Virus record (IMG/VR): IMGVR_UViG_3300043425_001634
Coordinates: 27,508-91,507 of that record
Strand: one strand, 5' to 3'
DNA length: 64,000 nucleotides
From: a virus
Shown here: piece after piece, positions 13,306 to 64,000 of the stretch
Position numbering within the stretch: the stretch's first letter is position 1
How the letters are laid out: each line of letters opens with the position of its first letter
Translations under genes and position numbers: made by a program
Notes under the pieces: model-generated
Seen by the model: the letters and a program-made list of their open reading frames with translations, nothing else
Database searches by the model: none
What the model was told of the DNA's origin: nothing

Positions 13306-13349
13306 CTCATAAGCCCTTGGTCTCGTGTTCAAATCACGCTTGAGCCATA
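13306..13349 (+). repeat. tRNA 3'-half copy 1 (candidate attachment site)
   Basis: 44 bp matching 20400-20443 at 42 positions. It corresponds to a tRNA from anticodon loop CTCATAA (CAU anticodon) through the T-arm to the acceptor strand. In this copy the T-stem reads TCGTG...CACGC and the acceptor begins TTGAG, so both mismatches weaken pairing. It follows the tail fibre stop by one base, and no 5' tRNA half precedes it. Confidence 0.6.
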
Positions 13350-13351
13350 GA

Positions 13352-13397
13352 CACCGCATCAGGGTACACTGCTGTAGGCTCAATGCGGTGTTTTTTT
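13352..13397 (+). terminator. terminator of the tail fibre unit
   Basis: Perfect 8-base arms CACCGCAT / ATGCGGTG with a 23-base loop, followed by seven T (13391-13397). Directly after the tRNA half. Confidence 0.75.
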
Positions 13398-13461: not shown

Positions 13462-14898
13462 TCAAGGAGCCAACTTAGCTTTTTTCGCTCTTTTTTTAGA
13501 ATACCATTCAGCAATTTCAGGCACCCATGCTTGGAAATGCGGCCAAATTAAATCGCAGAGTTTCTGACATTCTAACTGGGCATCTTTTTTCCAGCGCATA
13601 TCTAATAAATGCATCAGCGATCGCACATTTAAAGACATGACCCAATGTTGTCGCACATCAAAGGGAATAATCCCTCTAGCGTGTTCTTCCGCTGCCCCTT
13701 CAGAGATCAGTTGTTGATAGCGTTTTGCTGCTTCTAAACACCAAGCTAAATCGCGATCGCGCTGTGCTTGAGTATAGTCATAACGCTTTCCTTGGCGATC
13801 GGTGTAACTGCCCACGGGACGCAGATAAAATACTTCTTCGAGATCGCGTTTTCCTGTCGCCGCATCAACGATCCGATTTCCCGTATAGCGGTTAGAGTTA
13901 TGCACCACCATACCATTGGCGACAAAATTATGCCAAGGACCTTCTACTTCTAGGTCATAAGTCATTTCAAATCCCAGGAATTCAACGCTTTTTACCTTAA
14001 TTGGATGCGATCGGAGTTTATTCCCTGGTGATTTCGGTTTAGGTTGCCAATTTTTTGCTTCGAGAATCGGTTGATAATTTTTGGCAAACTCCGCCTCTTT
14101 GTTATTTTTCTGTTCTAGAAACTCTTTATTCCGATAAAGTCCATTGCCTGCCACTGCCATGCCATTACATAAGACCCAGCAATTTTTAATCATGTTAATT
14201 ACCTGACCATTTTCGGCTGTCATTAAACCGACCGCTTCCCCCATTGTTTGCCAGCCGAATGTGGTAAATAAGCGGTGATTGGTCGTACAATCTAAGGCTT
14301 TACCATCTTCTAAAGTTAGGCGATAAACAGGTTGAATCCCTTTAGCCATCACATCCTTAATATGTCCGAACTCAAAAAAGCCAGTGGTTTCATTCAGAAC
14401 CCTTAGCCGCATTTTTTTGATTCGGGTTTTGCCATCACGACGATATTCTCCAGTGGGTTCTCCGTTTCGACCTTGTTTTAATCGTTGGCGAATCGCTTTT
14501 TTGCCATTCGTCCATAACTCGTAAAGTTCCGCAATTTTGATTTTGCGTAAACTGCCACTAGCATGAACAAATGTCACCTCAGTATTTCCCGCCAGACACT
14601 GCACGTCGAAAGAAATTCCTACGCGGTGAGTTCTAATTTGCTGCATCACACTATGAGGAAAATATCCACAATTAAAAACAATGGCAGGGTGTTCGCAGCT
14701 ACCAAAGTGTCCGCGATCGCCTGCCAATAATCTTTTTACAGCAATTTCTCCGCACTTGCTTTCTGATGGCCATTTGTCCAACTTAGATAACCACTCATCT
14801 ATTACATATTCTTCGCTGTAATCCTGGTGCATTGCTGCATAAATAATTTGCTGAGGATTCGCAGCTTTAGATAGCACTTCTACTCGAAATTTTTCCAT
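13462..14898 (-). CDS. thyX: flavin-dependent thymidylate synthase interrupted by an intein
   Basis: Converts dUMP to dTMP using FAD and methylene-tetrahydrofolate. The 478-residue frame is a 244-residue ThyX host (1-100 and 335-478) plus a 234-residue intein. The ThyX signature is split: RTHRVGISFDVQ at 89-100, then after the intein SNRYTG, together giving the RHR..S.N..S.RY-type motif that binds FAD and dUMP. The rest is typical (MSLNVRSLMHLLDMR near the C-terminus). It joins tmk, nrdJ and mazG-like genes of this window in dNTP supply. It is divergent from the gene at 14947 over 48 bases. Confidence 0.92.
   Translation of the reverse strand: MEKFRVEVLSKAANPQQIIYAAMHQDYSEEYVIDEWLSKLDKWPSESKCGEIAVKRLLAGDRGHFGSCEHPAIVFNCGYFPHSVMQQIRTHRVGISFDVQCLAGNTEVTFVHASGSLRKIKIAELYELWTNGKKAIRQRLKQGRNGEPTGEYRRDGKTRIKKMRLRVLNETTGFFEFGHIKDVMAKGIQPVYRLTLEDGKALDCTTNHRLFTTFGWQTMGEAVGLMTAENGQVINMIKNCWVLCNGMAVAGNGLYRNKEFLEQKNNKEAEFAKNYQPILEAKNWQPKPKSPGNKLRSHPIKVKSVEFLGFEMTYDLEVEGPWHNFVANGMVVHNSNRYTGNRIVDAATGKRDLEEVFYLRPVGSYTDRQGKRYDYTQAQRDRDLAWCLEAAKRYQQLISEGAAEEHARGIIPFDVRQHWVMSLNVRSLMHLLDMRWKKDAQLECQKLCDLIWPHFQAWVPEIAEWYSKKRAKKAKLAP
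13897..14598 (-). other. intein coding region within thyX
   Basis: Residues 101-334 of the ThyX frame. It starts with Cys (CLAGNTEVTF, splicing block A), has block B around DCTTNHRLFTTFGW with the conserved T..H, and ends with block F/G YDLEVEGPWHNFVANGMVVHN, followed by extein Ser. The linker holds CWVLCNGMAVAGNGLYRNKEFL, like the helix-bearing segment found in cyanobacterial inteins, but no LAGLIDADG or full HNH motif. The homing nuclease therefore seems lost or degenerate. Confidence 0.88.
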
Positions 14899-19400: not shown

Positions 19401-20277
19401 CTCCGCTCGTCCAATTACCACCGGCTGCACCAATTAAGGTTCGCTCTGTTTTTAAAAATACAATATCAGTTTTTAAAAACCCTTCAGTGAGCAACGGAAA
19501 ATCTGGCTGGTCTCCGACCATGATCGCCAGGGGTGACTCCACTGCACCTTCGGTAGAGACTTTAAGTTTGTATTTTCCGCCACCAGATAACCACTTGTAT
19601 TTGCCGATCTTGTTTTCGGTGCGGATTTGTGCCGCGACAACTTGCCCGTATTGCCGAACCGGGCAAAGAAAACCGGGATCTGCTATTCTAAATTCCCCGC
19701 CAAAAATTCCTGGGAATTCTGTCCCCGATACGCGATCGCCGGGGTTGATCGAGACATAACCAAATTCTTTGATCTGAGATTCGCTCAGACCTCTCTTGGT
19801 TAAATCATTAAAATGAATATCCGATAATCCAAGCTGTTGTTGAATTTTTTTATAATTTCTATCGCGATCATGGGTGTTTTGAATCTTAATTTTGGTCGGA
19901 TCTAGCTGGACGTATGTTTTAATTTTTGGCTTGGGAATAAGATCACCACTGTTTTTGGGGCGCTCATATCCTCCATCCTTCAACGGTAACGGCAATCCAA
20001 GTAAATCATGGGCTCTTTCAATTTGCTCTTTCCATTCCGAAATACCACACAGCAATCCCACTAATTGAGAAGGAAACCACGCCTCTTCGCAAGTATGGCA
20101 ATAGATGTGAGGCGAATCATTGCTTGCATAAAGATAAGCACTGTAATGCCTATCTTCGTGTTGCGGACTCGGACATCGACAAGAGCGACCTCTTGTTTCC
20201 ACTCCTAAAATATCTAGGAGCCGGGGAAACATTGTATTGAGGTTTTCATTGCATCTATCAAAATCAAGTAACGGCAT
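16408..20277 (-). CDS. primase-helicase fusion replication protein
   Basis: The ATG at 20277 (MPLLDFDRCNEN) is preferred to a TTG 17 codons earlier. About 1289 residues. Visible in order: a CHC2-like zinc finger (CRCPSPQHEDRHY, then HIYCHTCEE, about 33-65); a TOPRIM-like region (LLTEGFLKTDIVF, then KLGIFADANS); Walker A SPTGTGKSYTA near 470; a possible Fe-S or zinc cluster CVSCPYFNVC; an acidic Walker B-like LLYWEEFG; a helicase motif VI-like EQAIGRPRANL; and a C-terminal HTH (QVADFVGVTKGRISQIAQAFGG). This layout matches primase-helicase proteins of cyanobacterial plasmids and phages. It probably primes and unwinds at the phage origin. Confidence 0.8.
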   Translation of the reverse strand: MPLLDFDRCNENLNTMFPRLLDILGVETRGRSCRCPSPQHEDRHYSAYLYASNDSPHIYCHTCEEAWFPSQLVGLLCGISEWKEQIERAHDLLGLPLPLKDGGYERPKNSGDLIPKPKIKTYVQLDPTKIKIQNTHDRDRNYKKIQQQLGLSDIHFNDLTKRGLSESQIKEFGYVSINPGDRVSGTEFPGIFGGEFRIADPGFLCPVRQYGQVVAAQIRTENKIGKYKWLSGGGKYKLKVSTEGAVESPLAIMVGDQPDFPLLTEGFLKTDIVFLKTERTLIGAAGGNWTSGEAQIRSYIRKYHPKKLGIFADANSLGNPQVAQRTWGQIQKLQAIGNSENNFLEIVIADYGQLNGNLIPSPDDWLVDLGEETATWEQKVRWLSVGEFKDAAVKCGLKVEKLLEEEEKYQRQLAKSLKKLYPTEEVVVAAKNERKAFIRKPSFVDLYFPKGGRIAAIEAALASEKKYILDISPTGTGKSYTAAEMIELGGEYFGASRIIFVTQDPRNVTVEGLKSVTRIDSRHKGVTKTATGEYRVAKQGDQLAAPPSCFVPEIFTALRIAGIENADSSRIGCVSCPYFNVCKSPQIKGSAGDYPNYIYQRREGLGKSAIIIHPQSLPQPKELAFDGESFPYAKSQQGKDLGSLLYWEEFGSVPIVHSIGVSLEDLEKTFCDINFNVIDSLRFDAATSSDISNQIIGKFGDFNTLKSCMKLMVSNLRQAHDLSVTAKEMGVKFFEKLWNYLAQSSQTPLPVCSFIADIYQKHGFYHFTELIASVKQVDSAGYLDLLDNFFTEILQSFQSVSRAFEIGKLVKILRKIISEDNSRFGMPHSKIIESFNVKDLMGKFTHEELKEVYEAISPKLDFLNDSFDGSELTGKEAISLRHAFTQEKLSQAEKLTKQWLHHFFAILTGQKIGHFHVSRRSLMIDLFNDRIPVIAREAEKNIFSDATLSRDRLAAILRCGPDEIFVICQETEKSKNLIIKQIPLKSYLHRGADQSRRIEAAKEAILQQCPKAAIIGSKKLGDDRYFFSSHSRGTNYFYEQGVTDLILTLTPAQNLASVESEFHLLFVHLPSEDELNQYLLEKIYIEYEQAIGRPRANLREENITIWVITDVDLSPLGYKVEVVDLESLSPECLGIVDRFKRKIGEAIKAGAETCQQVADFVGVTKGRISQIAQAFGGFKALKNCLISLLDSIYSEIKQTEDTTEALTNLALEFYGEHWEHLAHQTIEEDVLCTTKFVASAIKKYGIDRLKEMLVAAKWLDPSGFVSFIQEFLTEICQSFGLTPKIFESV

Positions 20278-20399: not shown

Positions 20400-20443
20400 C
20401 TCATAAGCCCTTGGTCGCGTGTTCAAATCACGCCTGAGCCATA
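20400..20443 (+). repeat. tRNA 3'-half copy 2 (candidate attP/attL)
   Basis: 44 bp from anticodon loop CTCATAA through T-arm GCGTG-TTCAAAT-CACGC to acceptor CTGAGCC, then A. The T-stem pairs perfectly here. It lies 124 bp before the integrase gene, the usual place for a tRNA-directed attachment site. A 5' tRNA half is absent, so it is not a functional tRNA. The matching copy is at 13306. Confidence 0.65.
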
Positions 20444-20451
20444 TATACTGC

Positions 20452-20483
20452 AAGCGATCTGAGGAATTTAGATCGCTTTTTTT
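20452..20483 (+). terminator. rho-independent terminator
   Basis: Perfect arms AAGCGATCT / AGATCGCTT, 9-base loop, then a T-run (20477-20483). It follows the tRNA half, as at copy 1, but the sequence differs. Confidence 0.75.
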
Positions 20484-20566: not shown

Positions 20567-21658
20567 ATGTCTAACAACAAGCTTACGATTGAAAGTATCA
20601 ATCAAGACCTCAAGGCGGCCAAGATCCGCATCCGCATCTGTACGGTAAAAGAAGGAAATACTTTGTTCTTAAGGGGGACTTTGCCTCCTAAGCCGGGTAG
20701 TGGAAAAGTTGGGGCTTACCAGCAAAGAGTCTCCCTTGGAGTTTTTGCCTCAGAAGTGGGGCTTCAATTTGCAAAAGGAGAAGCAATTAGATTGGCTGGC
20801 CTATTGGATACATATAGATTCTCATGGGAATCTTATCTCCCCGACATTTTCAATGATAGCACAAGTCAACTCAAAAAATGTGGGGAATGGATCAAATTAT
20901 TTGAGGAAGATTTTTGGCAAACGGGGACAAGATGCCGAGTTACCTGGAAGGATTACCGCAAGGTTTTCAAGAAGCTTCCTACTAATGAATTATTGGTTTA
21001 CGATCTTGCAAAAAAAATTATTTTAGAGACAAAGCCAAACACGAAAAGCAGAGAACGTACCACGGATAAAATTGCATCACTTTGTGAATTTGCCGAAATA
21101 CCCGATGCCTCAAATTTGCGCCGTTACCGGGGTTGCTATTCTCAGAGGGGTAAAAATACGCCTATAGTTGTCCCTGCATATCAAGAAATTCTTGATTGCG
21201 TGGATCATTTCCATAATGACTGGTGGCGAAATGCCTTTTGTTTGCAGGCAGCTTATGGACTCAGAAATCACGAAATTTACCACCTGAATTTTGACAAGAT
21301 GCACCAGGGTCTTCTGATTGTCAACAAAAATACAAAAACTGGCTGGCGGGTAGTCCCCAGTTGCCACCCTGAATGGGTGGAAAAATGGGGACTCAAAAAA
21401 TTAACACCGGCGGATATGCCCCAGTCTACCTTGACCGATAATGACTTACTTGGTCGCCAGGTTTGGAAGGCTTACAAGCGATCAAAAGTACCATTTTCCC
21501 CCTATGCTTTGCGCCACCGATTTGCCTGTGACTGTGCCTTACAAAATAAGCCTGTGGCCTTGGCCGCAAAAGTCATGGGGCACAGCTTAGAAACGCATAC
21601 AAAAATTTACCATGCTTTTCTCAGTCAGGATGACTTGCTGAGTGCATGGTATAAGTAA
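20567..21658 (+). CDS. int: tyrosine recombinase / integrase
   Basis: 363 residues. Catalytic set visible: Arg233 (AYGLRNHE), Lys257 (NTKTGW), Arg316 (YALRHRF), His339 (MGHSLE) and nucleophile Tyr348 (KIYHAF). The first His of the usual HxxR is replaced by Tyr313, an accepted variant. The N-terminal part fits an arm/core-binding domain. The gene sits next to a tRNA-3' attachment site and a small excisionase-like gene, so it should mediate integration into and excision from a tRNA gene. AGCAGGAG-type purine runs precede the ATG. Confidence 0.9.
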   Translation: MSNNKLTIESINQDLKAAKIRIRICTVKEGNTLFLRGTLPPKPGSGKVGAYQQRVSLGVFASEVGLQFAKGEAIRLAGLLDTYRFSWESYLPDIFNDSTSQLKKCGEWIKLFEEDFWQTGTRCRVTWKDYRKVFKKLPTNELLVYDLAKKIILETKPNTKSRERTTDKIASLCEFAEIPDASNLRRYRGCYSQRGKNTPIVVPAYQEILDCVDHFHNDWWRNAFCLQAAYGLRNHEIYHLNFDKMHQGLLIVNKNTKTGWRVVPSCHPEWVEKWGLKKLTPADMPQSTLTDNDLLGRQVWKAYKRSKVPFSPYALRHRFACDCALQNKPVALAAKVMGHSLETHTKIYHAFLSQDDLLSAWYK

Positions 21659-21662
21659 ATTT

Positions 21663-21851
21663 TCAAGACTTTCTTTTAGCCATTATTGTGTTCATGTATT
21701 TTTCTATGGCGGGTAAGTTATACTCATACTGACCAGAAGGTGTTCGCCGATAATGGATGCCTTCAATCCAGTAATTAATTCGCCATCTCCTGATCGTTGA
21801 TTTATGTTTTCTGAGTTTTGCTGTAATTTCTTTAATTTTCAAGTAATTCAC
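21663..21851 (-). CDS. excisionase-like small HTH protein
   Basis: 62 residues: LKIKEITAKLRKHKSTIRRWRINYWIEGIHYRRTP, a MerR/AlpA-type winged-helix start of the kind found in recombination directionality factors, then YNLPAIEKYM. Convergent with the integrase, 4 bases apart. Role inferred from fold and position. Confidence 0.7.
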   Translation of the reverse strand: MNYLKIKEITAKLRKHKSTIRRWRINYWIEGIHYRRTPSGQYEYNLPAIEKYMNTIMAKRKS

Positions 21852-21876
21852 TTTGTTTCCCCTTGATTACAATGAT

Positions 21877-21903
21877 ACCCCGACTAAAGTTTAGTCGGGG
21901 TAT
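21877..21903. terminator. hairpin upstream of the excisionase-like gene
   Basis: Perfect 13-base arms (TACCCCGACTAAA and its complement) centred on base 21890, followed on the plus strand by TATTTTATTT. It separates int/xis from the minus-strand operon ending at 21909. Confidence 0.65.
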
Positions 21904-21908
21904 TTTAT

Positions 21909-22472
21909 TTATCGACCAAAAAGTAGCACTTCTGAGGATTTAAATAACCGCTCATTGGTTGGCAGTTGCCAACTTCTTAGGAGGTCAAAAATGGCGATTT
22001 TTGCAATCTCATATCGCTGTTCGTCCATCACATAACATTTAATGTGATAATCATTTAATTGCTCTTGTGGGTTTAATTTTTTCCGACCTCCTCTTGGTCC
22101 AGTTTTTATGATTGGTTCAATAAAGCAGCAAGACCCAATGTAATAGGATGGCGAATCATTGATCGCCAATCCATTCGCTACAAAAACATCCAATAGTGCG
22201 CCTATAGCATTGTCTATATCCGCCCTCAAGGATCCGTGAAAGCAAAAGATTAAGCCAAATCTCTCAGGAAATGCTTGAACCTGCTGTTGATTTAGGTAAG
22301 AAATTACCTTATTCTGCCACTCCCTGTATTCAGAAGCCATATATGCCCCGTTGGTTCCGAACCGAGGCCGCTCTTTGGCGGCGCAGAGTTTCGGTTTGTT
22401 ATTGATCACTACAGCAGGAATTTCAAAATATTGACTGCTGCTGTTTATGCCGAAAATTTGACTGGCTGCCAT
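21909..22472 (-). CDS. RusA-like Holliday junction resolvase
   Basis: The ATG at 22472 (MAASQIFGINSSSQ) overlaps the methylase gene by 28 bases; a longer frame from 22538 is less likely. The conserved RusA core is visible: RPRFGTNGAYMASEYREWQ, FGLIFCFHGS, RADIDNAIGALLDVFVANG and INDSPSYY, with acidic residues in the RADIDN..LLD and NDS positions that bind magnesium. About 187 residues, longer than E. coli RusA because of extra N- and C-terminal parts. It probably resolves recombination or replication junctions before packaging. Confidence 0.75.
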   Translation of the reverse strand: MAASQIFGINSSSQYFEIPAVVINNKPKLCAAKERPRFGTNGAYMASEYREWQNKVISYLNQQQVQAFPERFGLIFCFHGSLRADIDNAIGALLDVFVANGLAINDSPSYYIGSCCFIEPIIKTGPRGGRKKLNPQEQLNDYHIKCYVMDEQRYEIAKIAIFDLLRSWQLPTNERLFKSSEVLLFGR

Positions 22473-23104
22473 AGCGTGTACGTTTCTCCAAATACTTTGA
22501 CAAAGTTTTCTGGGTGGTGTCCAAAATAATAAAGACAAGTGTCGTATCGATTGCTTTCGCCAATTGGTTGGCGATCAAGATCCACGAATTGTATTCGTGG
22601 GCATACCATTGCTCCTACCTTGCAGTGGCTACCCAGCAGCTTGCTTGTACCTGCATTTTGCATAGTCCCTGCCAGCATTAGCGCGATCGCTTCCGCTACA
22701 TTCCCAATTTCCATTTCTTGAATCAATTTTTCCAAGAAAAGAGATTGGTTCCCCTTATTTCCCACTTTGCTGTAAGGAGGATTCATAAACAAACAGGCAT
22801 TAGGGATACGACCTGGATTCCAGGTTAGTTGTTCTAGAGCATTATCTTTTTTGGTGAAAAAAGTTTTTGCTCCTATTAAATTTGTTCCGTCTTCCTTTTT
22901 TCTTGTACAGGGATCTATGTCTATGTCGCTAAAGTCAGGTCTGGACATCTTGAATACTTTTCTGATCTGGCCTAAATGCCATTCAGGGGTGTAGGCTTCA
23001 TCTGAGCCTTTTTCTTCTTGTCTTTTCGTCTGGTTGACTGACTGAAAGGTAGAAAGTTTATTATTAGCAGATGCTTCAAATAGCGAAAGTTGATTTGGCG
23101 TCAT
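22445..23104 (-). CDS. phage DNA N6-adenine methyltransferase
   Basis: 219 residues. Motifs of the phage Dam family: EAYTPEWHL near 37-45, DIDPCT near 61-66 and catalytic NPPYSKVG near 108-115, followed by an LMLAGTMQNA segment. This is a different methylase class from 1707-2639. The N-terminus reads MTPNQLSLFE, which includes a beta-clamp-binding peptide. Start ATG at 23104. Confidence 0.88.
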   Translation of the reverse strand: MTPNQLSLFEASANNKLSTFQSVNQTKRQEEKGSDEAYTPEWHLGQIRKVFKMSRPDFSDIDIDPCTRKKEDGTNLIGAKTFFTKKDNALEQLTWNPGRIPNACLFMNPPYSKVGNKGNQSLFLEKLIQEMEIGNVAEAIALMLAGTMQNAGTSKLLGSHCKVGAMVCPRIQFVDLDRQPIGESNRYDTCLYYFGHHPENFVKVFGETYTLWQPVKFSA

Positions 23105-23151
23105 ATAGCTAGTTCTACCCGGTTTTAGTGACCTTTGAATTCCGATTGTCT

Positions 23152-23385
23152 TTAGTAATTCTGCCGTTTTTGTTCGTAAATTGATTCGAGACTTGCGACT
23201 ACAAATTCAGCCGCTAACGGAGGAATGATCGCGTTTCCGTAGCCCCGTAAATCTCTGGAAATTTTCAATCGCTCCACTCTATCCCGTACCCCCATCAGCC
23301 ACCGGACAAACTCCGGGTTTAATGGGGCGCGATTGCCCTTCTGAATCTTGAATGAGGTCATTGTGACCTGCTTCCTGCTTTTCAT
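23152..23385 (-). CDS. C-terminal fragment of a cytosine-C5 methylase-like protein
   Basis: 77 residues; an ATG at 23361 with AGGTCACA before it is an alternative start. The sequence LNPEFVRWLMGVRDRVERL with GYGNAIIPPLAAEFV resembles only the last segment of C5 DNA methylases (the WLMG and GNAI.P motifs IX-X). No SAM site or catalytic PCQ is present, so it cannot methylate by itself. Either a relic of a larger gene or a small conserved phage protein derived from it. Confidence 0.6.
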   Translation of the reverse strand: MKSRKQVTMTSFKIQKGNRAPLNPEFVRWLMGVRDRVERLKISRDLRGYGNAIIPPLAAEFVVASLESIYEQKRQNY

Positions 23386-23423: not shown

Positions 23424-24191
23424 CTAAAATAAATTTAACTGCATTGGTTGATTTGTTGGCTCCAGCTTTGCTTGCTGGGGCTTATTTTTTAGGTTCTGTT
23501 CGGGAAATTCTTTAATCTCTTCTCCTTCCAATAAGCAACCACCTGCTTTTGGGGTTCTGCCGCCCCATTGCTTGAAGAAAAAAGGCACTCCCGCTACATA
23601 GCACTGATCTCGAATACTTATTGCCCATTGATATGCCATATCGCGAGAACCCGCCCCCGATTCCCCACCCACAATTACCCAGTGAATGCCATACAGGGGT
23701 AGGTAAAGGGGGCCTAGCAGTGGCTCACAAGAAAGGAATCGGATTTTTGCAGGAACCGTAACCAAATCAGCAATTCGATTAACGTAATCCTGAGTCTCTA
23801 CTGATACGCCCATCCAGATATTTTCATGCCAGATTAATTTAGGGGCAAGTTCTTTCAGGCGATCGCTTCTTTTTGTCAAAATTTGATAAGTGTGCCAAGG
23901 GGTTTTTTCTATAACGCTAAATACCTCTTGAATAAATTCTAGCGGCACATCTTTGTGAAACAAGTCACTCATTGAGTTAACGAATACTCGACTAGGTTTG
24001 CGCCACTTTAAGGGGTCGGTTAATCGGTCTGAATGTAATGTTAAGTTAAAGCCGTTTGGCCACCCGTTTGGAAAGCGCCTTGTTAGTTCTTCTGCATAAC
24101 ACCGGAGGCAACCTGGGCTAATTTTTGTGCAGCCCGTGGTGGGGTTCCATGTGCGGTCTGTCCATTCAATACCAGTTTTTGTGTTTGACAT
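23424..24191 (-). CDS. DUF5131 / phage Gp37-Gp68 family protein
   Basis: 255 residues. It begins with the family hallmark IEWTDRTWNPTTGCTKISPGCLRCYAE (a three-cysteine cluster C..C..C that suggests a radical-SAM-like metal site), then FVNSMSDLFH, ILTKRSDRL, NIWMGVSVE, FLSCEPLLGP, WVIVGGESGAGSR and PFFFKQWGG. The biochemical reaction of this family is not established. It ends in QLNLF, a beta-clamp-binding-type peptide. Two bases after the PP-loop gene, so probably functionally linked to it. Confidence 0.85.
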   Translation of the reverse strand: MSNTKTGIEWTDRTWNPTTGCTKISPGCLRCYAEELTRRFPNGWPNGFNLTLHSDRLTDPLKWRKPSRVFVNSMSDLFHKDVPLEFIQEVFSVIEKTPWHTYQILTKRSDRLKELAPKLIWHENIWMGVSVETQDYVNRIADLVTVPAKIRFLSCEPLLGPLYLPLYGIHWVIVGGESGAGSRDMAYQWAISIRDQCYVAGVPFFFKQWGGRTPKAGGCLLEGEEIKEFPEQNLKNKPQQAKLEPTNQPMQLNLF

Positions 24192-52000: not shown

Positions 52001-52789
52001 GGCGTTGCACATCTATGGTAGGATAAGGGGGTAGCCTCTACCCCTAGAGAAGATGATTTGTCCTAAGTGTCAGTCCACCAATATCAGTAAAAATGGCTTG
52101 AAGAGAGGAAAACAGAACCATATATGTAAGGATTGTGGTCGTCAATTTATCGACGTCTATTCTCCAGTCGGTTATCCCGAAGAAGTTAAACAACACTGTG
52201 TACATCTCTATCTTGAAGGGAATGGATTTCGCCGGATAGAAAGATTAACTGGAGTTTGTCATAACACCGTGATTAATTGGGTAAAAGCTGCGGCCAATAA
52301 TTTACCTTATGAACCTGATTATCAAGAGATTCCTGAAGTCTCTCAAGTTGATGAGTTACAGACTTATGTGGGTAAAAAAAACAGAAAGTCTGGGTCTGGA
52401 CTGTTGTAGATAAAAGGTTCCCAGGCATTTTAGCGTTTGTGGTCGGAGATAGGTCGAAAGAAACATTTAAACTGTTATGGAAAATAATTCAAGGTTGGGA
52501 ATGTTTCTTTTATGTCACGGATGGCTATGCAGTTTATCCTCAATTTATTGATGAACTTGACCATATAGTTAGCAAGCCCTTTATGACTCGGGTAGAAGGA
52601 GAAAACACGCGATTAAGACATTATCTAGCCCGCCTCCATAGAAAAACTTTATGTTATTCAAAATCTGTAGAAATGTTAACGATTTCTATCAGATTGCTTC
52701 TGTACTACCTGAAACATCGGACTATACCCCTGCCCAATTGAAGGACGGGATCCCTGTTTAATTCCATCCTACCATAGATGTGCAACGCC
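52001..52789 (+). mobile_element. IS1-family insertion sequence
   Basis: 789 bp bounded by perfect 24-bp terminal inverted repeats (52001-52024 and 52766-52789, beginning GGCGTTGCACATC). Two overlapping transposase frames with an A8 slippage tract. Left flank AAAAAAACA and right flank GTGGTTGCG are not a target duplication, so one flank has been deleted or rearranged. The right end lies in the 3' part of the SWIM-protein gene. Confidence 0.9.
52053..52741 (+). CDS. IS1-type transposase (InsA and InsB' by -1 frameshift)
   Basis: The first frame (52053-52409) has a zinc finger CPKCQSTN..CKDCGRQF and an HTH (FRRIERLTGVCHNTVINWVK), like InsA. At A8 (52374-52381) a -1 slip gives KKKQKVWVWTVVDKRFPG and continues into the catalytic InsB-type frame (VVGDRSKETFKLLW, YVTDGYAVYPQFI, VEGENTRLRHYLARLHRKT) to 52741. 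This fits IS1-family expression, where the fused InsAB' is the transposase. Confidence 0.88.
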
Positions 52790-56245: not shown

Positions 56246-56655
56246 GACCAAGGATTTAAGTTGAAAAAACTAAATAATTAAACCTTATATTTTTTACTGC
56301 TTTTAAAAGCGGTCAATAAATTTTGACCCTTGATTGGCAGTTACGCAACACTACGTCTTTTAAGATTTAGTGAGATTTGCTGTGTTTAAAAATATTTTTT
56401 TAGTAAGAAATAAGGGTAATGGGGGATAGAATATTGTTTTTGAGTGACGGTTGAAGTGATCGCGGATTAAATTCGCCCCATTTCAGATGTCCAAGGTAAA
56501 AAGACAAGCGATCGCCCCGCATCTTGAGGGATAAAGGTTTTAGGTGAGCCAATCTCCCAAAGGCAATAGGTTTGAGGTGAAAGAGGATTTGTTTAATTTC
56601 CCTATATAAGGCTATATATAGGGAAATTAAACAAATTAAACCTACTCACTCACTC
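56246..56655. other. non-coding region with long inverted repeat
   Basis: No gene seen. A 22-base perfect inverted repeat (56587-56608 and 56615-56636, 6-base loop) lies just beyond the stop of the small minus-strand frame at 56656. A pair of imperfect direct repeats (AGGTTTTAGGTGA / AGGTTTGAGGTGA at about 56538 and 56567) and one HIP1 site precede it. Confidence 0.5.
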
Positions 56656-56937: not shown

Positions 56938-57336
56938 TCATCCTTCGTAGTCAGGATGGTAAAGGTTGCAATATACTTGTTTGTATGCGGAGATTAAGCA
57001 CCTGATATATGGAGAGTCTTGACCAATCCCTTGCCAGAAAGCAGAGTCATCAGCATATTCGCAACTTTCCAGCCATTGAAGACCCCCACGGTCTTCAATG
57101 GCGTCAAACAACTTTATATGTTGCTCAAGCTTTTTCTGTATAAGCAGGGTCATCGTGCGAGTGTCATTTTCACCATCCTTTTGTGCTTGATAGGCTGCTG
57201 CCAAATCTCGATAGCTAATACCACAAGCTTGAACCTGGTATGAATGACGCAACAGGCCATTCAATTGGGCTGCACTCGCAAGAGTAGAAAGTGCAGCACT
57301 AATCCCCGGTCGCTGGCAGGTAATTTTGTAAATCAT
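56938..57336 (-). CDS. hypothetical protein
   Basis: 132 residues, mainly helical (GISAALSTLASAAQLNGLL, TMTLLIQKKLEQHIKLFDAI), ending CNLYHPDYEG. AAGGAGAG-type ribosome-binding site. No family recognised. Followed by a good terminator. Confidence 0.6.
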   Translation of the reverse strand: MIYKITCQRPGISAALSTLASAAQLNGLLRHSYQVQACGISYRDLAAAYQAQKDGENDTRTMTLLIQKKLEQHIKLFDAIEDRGGLQWLESCEYADDSAFWQGIGQDSPYIRCLISAYKQVYCNLYHPDYEG

Positions 57337-57594
57337 TCTTTTCTCTCCTTAACTTAATTTGCTGTCCCTATTCGGGAATGCGATCGCCCGGTTCCGACCC
57401 CGGCTGAGGCATCCAGTATGCGCGATCGCTAAATGTTTGACTTATTTAACAAGACTGACGGGTGATGGTCAGCGGCAACCTGCGATCATAGTGGTGGGGT
57501 TGTTATCCCTGCTCAATCTTCTCGTAAAGAGGCTTGCCGCACTCTGTTACCAGTTGTGACAGATCCTGCAAAGGGAACCACTCAATATTTTGAC
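57337..57594. other. non-coding stretch
   Basis: No convincing gene on either strand. It holds two HIP1-related sites and a few short stems (for example GCGATCGCCCGG near 57379). It separates the gene at 56938 from repeat copy 1. Confidence 0.4.
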
Positions 57595-57678
57595 TTTGTA
57601 AGCCGCGCCCCCGTCAGGGGCTACCGAAATCGCTACATCTTATTTGTTCATCCGGTGTTACGCCGGGTAGTGGTTTCG
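57595..57678 (-). repeat. 84-nt structured repeat, copy 1
   Basis: Identical over 84 bases to the three copies at 58066-58366. Each folds into a closed cruciform: 14-bp stem ACCGAAATCGCTAC with GTAGTGGTTTCGGT (two G-T pairs; the last base pair is absent in copy 1), an adjacent hairpin GCCCC-CGTCA-GGGGC, and an inner hairpin CCGGTG-TTA-CGCCGG. Copy 1 lies four bases beyond the stop of the small gene at 57683, in its 3' untranslated region, and lacks the closing GTGGCT. Confidence 0.8.
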
Positions 57679-57682
57679 AGCG

Positions 57683-58021
57683 TTAGTCGCACTTTTTCCA
57701 TACAACAGGAACCACAGATTTGTCTGCTATTGGATCAAGATAGGGAGACTTGTCCTTTGACACATAAACGTTACCTGTGCTGTTGACAAATAATTCACCA
57801 GAATTAAACGCTGTGTAGCGATCTTGATACCATTGCCCGTTAAACTCACACCCGTTTTCTGAACAATGAGCAATTGCCTCGGCTTCGGAAGCGTAAAAGG
57901 CATTATATCGCCCTGATTCATAAGTCGCATATACAGTAGACTCATTAATCTCAATCTGCTCTTGCGAAGAGCAAGAGCGAAAACGATCGATAGCAGTGGC
58001 AGCAATGCTTTGACTATTCAT
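57683..58021 (-). CDS. small protein flanked by structured repeats
   Basis: The ATG at 58021 (MNSQSIAATAIDRFRSC) has GGAG eight bases upstream. About 112 residues, four cysteines (RSCSSQ, HCSENGCEF, WKKCD), several Tyr-rich segments (YATYESGRYNAFYASE). No family recognised. A consensus promoter at 58392-58420 would make a leader of about 360 nt containing three repeats. The gene plus repeats looks like one cassette. Confidence 0.6.
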   Translation of the reverse strand: MNSQSIAATAIDRFRSCSSQEQIEINESTVYATYESGRYNAFYASEAEAIAHCSENGCEFNGQWYQDRYTAFNSGELFVNSTGNVYVSKDKSPYLDPIADKSVVPVVWKKCD

Positions 58022-58065
58022 AATATTTTCTCCGTTTGTTTCTTTCATGACTGTTGTTTCTTGAT

Positions 58066-58149
58066 TTTGTAAGCCGCGCCCCCGTCAGGGGCTACCGAAA
58101 TCGCTACATCTTATTTGTTCATCCGGTGTTACGCCGGGTAGTGGTTTCG
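58066..58149 (-). repeat. 84-nt structured repeat, copy 2
   Basis: Same sequence as copy 1, with closing GTGGCT pairing to AGCC. Together with copy 3 it shares the flank CTGTTGTTTCTTGAT; copies 2 and 3 are 103 bases apart. Confidence 0.85.
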
Positions 58150-58168
58150 GTGGCTGTTGTTTCTTGAT

Positions 58169-58252
58169 TTTGTAAGCCGCGCCCCCGTCAGGGGCTACCG
58201 AAATCGCTACATCTTATTTGTTCATCCGGTGTTACGCCGGGTAGTGGTTTCG
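58169..58252 (-). repeat. 84-nt structured repeat, copy 3
   Basis: Identical to the other copies. Shares its downstream flank GGTGGCTTTCTTTTTGCCAT with copy 4, 114 bases away. Confidence 0.85.
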
Positions 58253-58282
58253 GTGGCTTTCTTTTTGCCATGTTCTATTGAC

Positions 58283-58366
58283 TTTGTAAGCCGCGCCCCC
58301 GTCAGGGGCTACCGAAATCGCTACATCTTATTTGTTCATCCGGTGTTACGCCGGGTAGTGGTTTCG
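58283..58366 (-). repeat. 84-nt structured repeat, copy 4
   Basis: Identical core. Closest to the minus-strand promoter at 58392, so it would be the first RNA domain transcribed. Confidence 0.85.
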
Positions 58367-58391
58367 GTGGCTTTCTTTTTGCCATGTTCTA

Positions 58392-58420
58392 AATATATTG
58401 CACCCTTTTGGATTTGTCAA
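58392..58420 (-). promoter_or_regulatory. promoter reading through the repeats
   Basis: On the minus strand TTGACA (58415-58420), 17 bases, TATATT (58392-58397). Transcription would pass through repeat copies 4, 3 and 2 and then the gene at 57683. Confidence 0.7.
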
Positions 58421-58518
58421 GCGCTTTTTTATAAAAATCCAGGAAAGGCTGTGAGATATCCCTGAAGGTCTTGTATGACCTGTGTTACAGTGGGGTGGTA
58501 TGGTATTGAGGCTTATTT

Positions 58519-58767
58519 ATGAGTTGGCGTTTAAGTGAGATTATGGCTCGGCATGGGATCAAAGGGATTCAGTTGGCCAAAAAACTGGGGATTTCCGATA
58601 ATACGGTATCGAAACTCCGAACGGCGCAAGAGATGCCCTATTTGTCAGGGCAAAAGCTAAATCAACTTTGCGACGCCTTGAACGATTTGATCTGGGAATC
58701 GGGGCAAAGTAGTAGCATCATTGCCCCATCTGATTTGATTACTTATAGCTACAAGCGAACAAGATAG
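58519..58767 (+). CDS. small Cro/C1-type HTH regulator
   Basis: 82 residues: MSWRLSEIMARHGIKGIQLA, KKLGISDNTVSKLRT, then KLNQLCDALNDLIWE. HTH_26-type, closest to 1246-1521 (both end near APSDLI/TPNDLI then a Tyr segment). A short AGGTC/GACCT repeat at 58467-58482 may be its operator. It diverges from the repeat-flanked gene. Confidence 0.8.
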   Translation: MSWRLSEIMARHGIKGIQLAKKLGISDNTVSKLRTAQEMPYLSGQKLNQLCDALNDLIWESGQSSSIIAPSDLITYSYKRTR

Positions 58768-59060: not shown

Positions 59061-61147
59061 TTTTTTTCAGCGTGATAATCGACGAAGTTCATAGAACTCT
59101 TGCAGTAAGGGATGATTACCTTGTAGTTAAGCTTTGATGCTTTGTTGGTTTTCCATCCTTTATAGGCGATCGTATTTTTGGCATGGTAGCGGGTTAATCC
59201 GTCAAAAACTTTAATTACCGAGTCAACGTCGATTTGTTTTTTGTTCTCCCAAAACATCAATAAGAGACTGCGGATATTCTCCTCATTAAATGCCATTAAT
59301 TCCTGTTCTTTTTGGAATTCGTCGAACTTCTCTATAAAGTCGGAGGTGGAAGCATCACGCAACTCGGTACGCCGAAAAACTTCATCCCAGAACCGCGCTT
59401 TTAGATATTTCGCTTCTTTCTCAAAGGAATTATGACGATCGCGTTCGCTTGATTCTGCTTTTGATTGGGTACTCTCCCAATCCCGCAAGCCGATCCCCTG
59501 GAGGGCAAAATCTAACTTAGCTTGCGCCACAAACTTTTCTCGCAGGGCATCGAGTGCAAGTTCGTATTGATGAACCAAGGTAACGATAATATCAGATCGC
59601 CCCAGTCCTGCGGTGGTGGGCTGCGCGATCGCACTTTCAAAGTCCTCTTTAGTAAATGTTTGAGAACGATTCTCATTCTCAAATTTAAATTTGAATTCTT
59701 GGGGGGACTGCTTTGGTTTATCTAGAGTAATCATTTGAATCGGGCAATCCGTGGATCGTCCCGCAAATTCAAAGCAAGATCCAAGGCTTTTGCTTTTGCC
59801 GTGGAGTCGGATTAATTCCGCCAGCCTTACATTCTTTGTAAAGCGTGGAGTTTCTGGCAATAAAGCCACGATCCGTCCCCCTGGTTTGAGTATTTCCCAA
59901 GCGTGGAAAATGTGAGCCAGACCGCTGGAAAATGGCGGATTCATAATGATTGAGGGGCAACACTCCCGCTCATTGAAAGTCAGAAAATCATTGCCTACCA
60001 ATAGGTACTCCTTGCCTTTCAGCGTTGCGGCCAAATCTGGATCGATTTCGATCCCCCGAAGCTGATTTTTGCGATCGCTGCCGTATTTGTCAACATAAAC
60101 AGCGATTGCATCCAATAGATTCCCCTTTCCTGCGCTAGGGTCAAGCACAGGGAAAACTAATTTGATGTCGCGATCGCGCTTTAGTTCCGCCGCCATTTTA
60201 TCGGCGATCTTCTTCGGTGTGGGATAGAATTGGTGAGCGAAGACAAATGCTTTATAGCACTGATCTTTTTCCTCGTCGTTAATACCGGTGTCTACCGTGG
60301 CGGTGGTATCGGTATCGGTATCGGTATCGGTATTGGTATCGGTAACTTCTGCCTTTATTATGGCGTCAGCGCTAGGGGCATCTTCTAGGTTGCGCTCCCC
60401 ATAATAAAAACCAAACTTGTTAAAACGCTCTAGGATACAGATATAGATATCGCTCAATAAACAATCTGCCGTTCCTATTACTGGGTTGGATTCGTAGACA
60501 GATTTAGCAAAAGTGATCGCCTCATCGCTCCATTTGTGCTCGTAGTTAAAGCGATACTCAAAATCTACTGACTCCAGCACACTTATAACATCAGCCTTTC
60601 TTGGACCATCAACCCAGGAAATTGTTATGCTTTCTTCTGTGTACATTGATTTGTACTTTCTAGTCTTAAACTCGCAGAGTTTAAAAACAGTTTTTAAAAT
60701 TTTCTTAATTTTGTTAGCAGATTTTGACTTTTCTCTTTTTTCCTGTGGCGGCAACAAGTGATCCAGCCCGACTCCTCGCGGCGGCTCGACGTTGGCGAAT
60801 TTCTCTTTATTTTCGCTTAAGTAACGAGATAATTGAGCATAATTTTTAACCACCAGTCCATTAGCGTGATCAATTATTATCGATCTGCCTAGCGGTTCAA
60901 GATTATCAGGCTCCAAAGGAAAATCAGAGGAACAAAATTTATTAATCCTTAACGATTTCCATAAGGCCAATAATATCCCCGTGCTGGCTAATGGTGAGTC
61001 AGTTATAAAGTTTAACGTTTTGTTGTCGGCCAATGTATCCATATCTAAATCATCATATTTGATGATTTGATCATCATTCTGTGTCATTGCTGTCATCTCT
61101 GCCATTTCGTTGATCAGAGATTCGATATCTGTAAATAGTTTTAGCAT
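59057..61147 (-). CDS. N6-adenine-type DNA methyltransferase, DUF4942-like
   Basis: The ATG at 61147 has GGAG seven bases upstream (a longer frame begins at 61225). About 696 residues. SAM site LDPSAGKGNLLDAI near 335-348 and catalytic MNPPFSSGLAHIF near 400; downstream LKPGGRIVALLPE. A Thr/Asp dipeptide repeat (TNTDTDTDTDTT) near 275 comes from tandem GGTATC units. An N-terminal domain (YAQLSRYLSEN..EPPRGVGLDHL) resembles part of the protein at 62927. The N-terminus MLKLFTDIE looks like a weak clamp-binding peptide. Confidence 0.8.
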   Translation of the reverse strand: MLKLFTDIESLINEMAEMTAMTQNDDQIIKYDDLDMDTLADNKTLNFITDSPLASTGILLALWKSLRINKFCSSDFPLEPDNLEPLGRSIIIDHANGLVVKNYAQLSRYLSENKEKFANVEPPRGVGLDHLLPPQEKREKSKSANKIKKILKTVFKLCEFKTRKYKSMYTEESITISWVDGPRKADVISVLESVDFEYRFNYEHKWSDEAITFAKSVYESNPVIGTADCLLSDIYICILERFNKFGFYYGERNLEDAPSADAIIKAEVTDTNTDTDTDTDTTATVDTGINDEEKDQCYKAFVFAHQFYPTPKKIADKMAAELKRDRDIKLVFPVLDPSAGKGNLLDAIAVYVDKYGSDRKNQLRGIEIDPDLAATLKGKEYLLVGNDFLTFNERECCPSIIMNPPFSSGLAHIFHAWEILKPGGRIVALLPETPRFTKNVRLAELIRLHGKSKSLGSCFEFAGRSTDCPIQMITLDKPKQSPQEFKFKFENENRSQTFTKEDFESAIAQPTTAGLGRSDIIVTLVHQYELALDALREKFVAQAKLDFALQGIGLRDWESTQSKAESSERDRHNSFEKEAKYLKARFWDEVFRRTELRDASTSDFIEKFDEFQKEQELMAFNEENIRSLLLMFWENKKQIDVDSVIKVFDGLTRYHAKNTIAYKGWKTNKASKLNYKVIIPYCKSSMNFVDYHAEKN

Positions 61148-63672: not shown

Positions 63673-64000
63673 TTACGCTCCGATCAACTCCACAAGTTCA
63701 GTATCAGTTAATCCCCGGCGGAAATCCACGATCGCATCATTTATGATGCTTATCGCTAGGCATTGATGCTCGACGACCCAAAGCATCCCATAGCTATTTA
63801 AAAGCCACTGGGATTTAACGTTGTTTAATTTTTTGATGTCATCTTTGATGGCATTAATATCAAAATTAAAAGTAGTTCGTTTATAAGCGATCGCGGTGGT
63901 GGATTCGGAGGCGATCGCGGTGGTGGATTCGGAGGCGATCGCGGTGGTGGATTCGGAGGCGATCGCGGTGGTGGATTCGGAGGCGATCGCGGTGGTGGAT
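63673..64000 (-). CDS. protein with SESTTAIA repeats, truncated by the right edge
   Basis: Open on the minus strand from the window edge to TAA at 63673, at least 109 codons; the start lies beyond 64000. The visible N-terminal side is at least four SESTTAIA octapeptides, followed by [40 protein letters not shown] and [12 protein letters not shown]. The C-terminal part resembles small helical cyanobacterial proteins; no family recognised. Confidence 0.6.
63887..64000. repeat. 24-bp tandem repeat built on HIP1
   Basis: Unit GCGATCGCGGTGGTGGATTC plus GGAG, four full copies and a partial one to the edge, all identical. Each unit contains one GCGATCGC. On the minus strand it encodes SESTTAIA. Further copies may follow outside the window. 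Confidence 0.9.

Follow-up and report, generated by a model that had tools for sequence, protein, structure and literature searches.

A tandem repeat array behind a tRNA-Asp type promoter in three related phages, a candidate structured leader RNA

Results

Four copies of a structured repeat lie around a small ORFan gene

The window, by which we designate the whole stretch of 64,000 nucleotides analysed here, covers the final 64 kb of an IMG/VR virus record of 91.5 kb in which terminase, portal and head-protein genes are present. On its minus strand, a gene at 57683-58021 with the Shine-Dalgarno sequence GGAG encodes a protein of 112 amino acids, an ORFan belonging to no family and with homologues confined to three phage records. 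An 84-nt core occurs around this gene in four same-strand copies, identical to each other, at 57595-57678, 58066-58149, 58169-58252 and 58283-58366 (plus-strand numbering). Three of them are in the leader of the gene and one is past its stop, exactly where the first-pass annotation had placed them. A probe of 42 nt gave four exact matches against none expected in shuffled sequences, and the whole 91.5-kb record holds no further copy.

With its flanks, the common unit measures about 95 nt (TTGAYTTTGTAAGCC...GGTTTCGGTGGC). The leader units w4 (58278-58372), w3 (58164-58258) and w2 (58061-58155) form a tandem array at 58061-58391 on the minus strand; its periods are 114 and 103 nt, and the transcript predicted for the 112-aa gene includes it. 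Cores w3 and w4 are followed on the plus strand by TTTCTTTTT, a U-tract that has decayed in w2. The fourth copy, w1 (57590-57678), lies 4 nt past the stop of the gene; it is truncated at its GGTGGC end, stopping after GGTTTCG with loss of the closing stem, and it abuts the remnant of another gene.

The ORFan protein is 99% identical in the two related phages described below, and its structure model (pLDDT 44) was too poor for a fold search. The ribosome-binding site is mostly unpaired, with a mean pairing of 0.25 compared to 0.53 over the leader, and no attenuator was found in the leader. Between the array (58061) and the gene (58021) no minus-strand terminator-like site was called, so that transcription into the gene is plausible. 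A strong terminator-like hairpin at 56588-56635 (minus strand) is the likely end of the transcription unit. We considered a short reading frame within the unit (MAKRKPPKPL... in the window) as a leader ORF and rejected it, since the frame is lost in the relative (L005).

On the other side of the array, a divergent gene at 58519-58767 (plus strand) encodes a Cro/C1-type HTH regulator (HTH_26) and is the most diverged stretch around the locus between the window and its relative. The regulator and its upstream region (58400-58690) differ by 15-30% between phages that are otherwise 98% identical, suggesting that immunity specificity may have been exchanged; such divergence would be expected of an immunity-type gene.

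The array lies behind a promoter of the tRNA-Asp type

A consensus minus-strand promoter had been noted ahead of the array, and we found it at 58420-58392 as TTGACA, a spacer of 17 nt and TATATT, matching the sigma-70 consensus at 11 of 12 positions. Together with an upstream A-tract, these elements make up a promoter region at 58393-58437 (minus strand) which is conserved in the relative (L005) and from which transcription would be expected to start at about 58385.

Over 45 nt, this region aligns with the tRNA-Asp(GTC) promoter of Laspinema-like genomes with a score of 56, the maximum among shuffled sequences being 25. The identity reaches 79-83%; 16 consecutive nt, TTGACAAATCCAAAAG, are identical, and the A-tract upstream is part of the alignment. 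Among 291 genomes of the order, eight matched the promoter at E <= 0.001, seven of them directly upstream of tRNA-Asp; six of these seven are near-identical orthologues and hence not independent, and the seventh (L103), diverged in its -10 region, has no more than the -35 part in common. The phage version differs from its cyanobacterial counterpart in that it serves the array and the ORFan gene instead of a tRNA, and in a spacer region that is 3 nt shorter, which gives a better -10 element. We regard these data as good evidence that the array sits behind a promoter of the stable-RNA type on the minus strand, which may have originated by capture from a host or by convergence. With such a match, strong minus-strand transcription of the array, yielding a structured leader RNA, is probable. 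The unit itself does not resemble a tRNA: ARAGORN detected none, and its similarity to tRNA-Asp was within chance (32 of 500 shuffles).

The best matches of the promoter being in Laspinema-like genomes, and an IS1-type transposase at 52053 being 88-89% identical to Laspinema and Oscillatoria copies, we conclude that the phage infects filamentous cyanobacteria of this kind or has recently passed through them.

The repeat is specific to three phages and its copy number varies

Searching for the core in phage and cyanobacterial genomes, as had been proposed, returned two related IMG/VR phages only. Scans of 2.9 million viral contigs with exact and degenerate patterns detected the repeat in the window's record, in IMGVR_UViG_3300043443_000811 and in IMGVR_UViG_3300047553_000984, and nowhere else. 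BLAST of isolate phages and plasmids produced short chance matches, and the repeat was found neither in GTDB genomes (exact-pattern scan) nor in 291 order-mate genomes (BLAST and degenerate pattern), where weak matches of 19-29 nt are scattered and lie outside CRISPR arrays. A covariance model gave no match over 194 genomes, and in Rfam 15 nothing exceeded the gathering threshold, the best score being 17.8 bits for a cutoff of 100. The host genome itself may be absent from the genome sets searched. Looking for more distant phages through the neighbouring methyltransferase-like protein led to the same two records; no terminase relative carries the repeat, since the scans of the whole collection give only these two. 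The repeat is genuine and unusual, and is confined to this small group of phages.

Both relatives carry two copies in the leader of the same gene, none past its stop and none elsewhere. In all three phages, at least two intact units are thus located between the promoter and the same gene. As to whether the repeat always flanks this gene, the leader position holds in the three phages, while the copy past the stop is proper to the window. Wrapping of the gene by repeats is therefore neither ancestral nor necessary.

The two leader copies of the relatives, compared to three plus one in the window, agree with the earlier proposal of a recent duplication, as do the two periods: the extra leader copy of the window comes from a 103-nt tandem duplication distinct from an older one of about 114 nt. 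These observations support growth of the array by ordinary, recent tandem duplication, with a variable copy number. The w1 junction has been rearranged. There, about 4 kb of the relative, with small genes and the reverse transcriptase of a group II intron, corresponds in the window to no more than w1 and a gene remnant of 84 nt, the C-terminal end of another gene (NIEWFPLQDLSQLVTECGKPLYEKIEQG*, 57503-57589, minus strand) joined directly to w1; the join would mark a deletion or rearrangement junction. No homologues of the remnant gene were found. The reverse transcriptase/maturase of the missing 4-kb stretch carries an HNH domain and is encoded at 21556-23319 of relative G001 (1556-3319 of L071).

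The first-pass annotation took the identity of the copies as a sign of function, which the comparison with the relative does not bear out. The window and the relative are 98.2% identical over 73 aligned kb, and the relative's copies differ from those of the window at 0 and 3 of 89 bases; at 1.8% divergence, three or more differences per 89 nt are expected with P = 0.22. Since the repeats diverge at the background rate, their identity is no evidence of selection. We also rejected the idea that the gene and array are conserved above the level of the genome, 43% of 370-nt windows being equally conserved.

This background divergence, the two duplications with different breakpoints, the difference of two versus three copies between close relatives and the truncated copy at a rearranged junction are all what would be left by slippage or unequal crossing-over that multiplied one structured leader segment, its copy number having no consequence. 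Such a passive origin is nevertheless rather unlikely in our judgment, because every leader copy in the three phages has kept the full structure and the array stands exactly between promoter and gene.

The predicted fold is more stable on the plus strand

The unit can be folded into a three-way junction, with a 14-bp stem formed by ACCGAAATCGCTAC and GTAGTGGTTTCGGT, two hairpins (GCCCC/GGGGC and CCGG/CCGG) and a closing helix AAGCC/GGCTT. The architecture is thus the one first described, a 14-bp stem with two GC-rich hairpins; perfect pairing of the stem requires that G.T pairs be counted, and is then confined to the plus strand. The folding energy is -40.1 kcal/mol (z -4.7) on the plus strand and -31.9 kcal/mol (z -3.2) on the minus strand. 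Few 95-nt stretches of the window reach a plus-strand energy as low as that of the unit; its z-score is surpassed by many other stretches. The imperfect stem pairs of the intact copies, three in w2 to w4 and in r2 and four in r1 (r1 and r2 being the copies of the relative), are all G.T on the plus strand, which makes them A.C mismatches on the minus strand, and one relative copy has lost another minus-strand stem pair. Covariation had been suggested as a check on homologs. In the copies of these three near-identical phages, no stem pair has changed on both sides, and there is consequently no covariation.

Past the stem, the plus strand carries a U-tract with 8 T out of 9 in w3, w4 and r1 and 7 out of 9 in r2, values reached by 0.3% and 1.2%, respectively, of the GGC sites in the window. 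Furthermore, each of the three leader copies coincides with a terminator-like site called on the plus strand. Because the G.T pairs are all on the plus strand and most copies have the U-tract, each unit can also be read as an intrinsic terminator that points away from the gene, a resemblance that is suggestive only, the strand bias depending on few positions in copies of shared ancestry.

The array could accordingly be viewed as an insulator, in which the plus-strand units keep antisense transcription from running into the promoter and the divergent regulator. A plus-strand fold stronger by 8 kcal/mol, the U-tracts, the called sites and the G.T pairs speak for this role. Rho is absent from cyanobacteria (PMC13289151), where intrinsic stops would accordingly be useful. 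We consider it unlikely all the same. No plus-strand gene other than an IS element is located within about 4 kb upstream, the U-tract is missing in w1 and w2, the fold is a three-way junction and not a simple hairpin, and the strand bias is based on 3-4 positions.

Other repeats and genes in the window

A second structured dispersed repeat of 66 nt was found at 57365-57430, 5′ of the gene 56938-57336. Six further copies are in relative G001 (about 19738-19803, 20125-20186, 20683-20747, 20869-20911, 24040-24104 and 59524-59593), making seven with that of the window; the family stands among small minus-strand genes, and a pattern scan of viral contigs detected it in these phages only. It is unrelated to the 84-nt-core repeat, a common origin having been rejected on comparison. 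Three spacers in two CRISPR arrays of Planktothricoides sp. SR001 match this second repeat, and a locus of genome G066, with a 20-mer repeated 40 times, is a probable further spacer match (90-98%, the G066 match included). Given these matches, hosts target a multi-copy non-coding element. With a view to an RNA anti-CRISPR that would mimic a host CRISPR repeat, the 84-nt-core repeat was compared to the two CRISPR repeats of Planktothricoides SR001, which may not be those of the host, and no similarity was seen.

A 53-nt repeat (91%) at 13306-13358 and 20400-20452 looks like a tRNA 3′ half bearing a CAT anticodon loop, and its second copy is just before a tyrosine integrase gene (20567-21658); the two copies are possible attachment sites or a tRNA remnant. 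At 63887-64000, a perfect tandem repeat of 24 bp, GCGATCGCGGTGGTGGATTCGGAG, runs off the end of the record. Finally, a minus-strand ORF of 478 amino acids at 13462-14898 apparently encodes a ThyX-like thymidylate synthase interrupted in frame by an intein-like insert, an assignment based on its translation only.

Discussion

The reading that we favour, tentatively and at somewhat less than even confidence, is that the array serves as a structured 5′ leader, placed behind a tRNA-Asp type promoter and recently multiplied ahead of an ORFan gene. The host-type promoter would drive a minus-strand phage transcript opening with two to three tandem, self-contained RNA elements of about 95 nt, followed by the small ORFan gene. 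What the sequences show is the copies with their folding potential, the match of the promoter, a position kept in three phages and a copy number that varies; we infer that the array is transcribed on the minus strand, folds in the cell, and regulates or protects the transcript. It would probably act in cis, as a surface for binding of a protein or RNA polymerase or for processing, or by stabilising the transcript, and its multiplication by ordinary tandem duplication would be recent, the number of copies not being fixed. The first-pass annotation had already proposed a structured leader behind a strong minus-strand promoter, a proposal that gains strength from the match to host tRNA-Asp promoters. 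Counted against the leader reading are the imperfect pairs that are G.T on the plus strand only, the lack of covarying pairs and the background level of substitution in the repeats.

Several known systems offer points of comparison. The put RNA (putL/putR) of phage HK022 is a structured RNA of about 70 nt with which early transcripts open behind a strong promoter, and which acts on RNA polymerase (PMC9378689). The position of the array would fit the start of a predicted transcript, which may be an early one, beside an HTH regulator gene. However, put occurs once per transcript with two stem-loops, whereas here there are two to three tandem units of about 95 nt, each predicted to form a three-way junction. 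Tandem riboswitches and structured mRNA leaders have repeated structured units in a 5′ leader, as found here, but our repeat has no Rfam match at gathering score, and the ribosome-binding site is open with no attenuator found. A classical on/off switch is for these last two reasons less likely than an RNA that is stabilising, binds a protein or acts on RNA polymerase. In its boldest form, the leader reading would place the array in a new class of phage RNAs. A captured host tRNA promoter would express structured RNA in tandem units whose effect depends on dose. This RNA would target the host RNA polymerase, or would serve as a decoy that titrates an RNA-binding protein or nuclease of the host, and the adjoining ORFan would be its partner protein. 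This we hold to be quite improbable.

In the type III toxin-antitoxin loci ToxIN, CptIN and TenpIN, too, one strand carries a promoter, then RNA repeats in tandem and then a small ORF (PMC8860590), an order that our locus shares and that would make the repeats an antitoxin and the small protein a toxin. A locus of this kind is very improbable here: the units are larger (103-114 nt), no terminator hairpin separates the repeats from the ORF, and the 112-aa protein is unrelated to known toxins, having no ToxN/CptN/TenpN match and no family match in Pfam, PADLOC, PHROGs, NCBIfam or PDB. Still less probable is a mobile or recombination element (an integron attC, a REP/MITE or, as also put forward at first, the ends of a mobile cassette), for although the window gene has a repeat copy on each side, the structure has two hairpins and w1 is at a rearranged junction, the RYYYAAC and GTTRRRY boxes are absent from all six copies on either strand, no Y1 (TnpA/RAYT) transposase was found in the possibly incomplete records of the three phages, no dispersed copies were found in the genomes searched, the phages have the repeat at this locus only, and the gene of the relatives has no copy past its stop.

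We thus present the array as a candidate leader RNA and not as a demonstrated new system. Structured leader RNAs in phages of filamentous cyanobacteria are hardly charted, and the repeated element, with its tRNA-type promoter, offers a candidate that can be tested for a phage RNA whose action depends on dose or is exerted on RNA polymerase. The match of the promoter further suggests that a host stable-RNA promoter can be employed by phages for a transcript beside a regulator gene.
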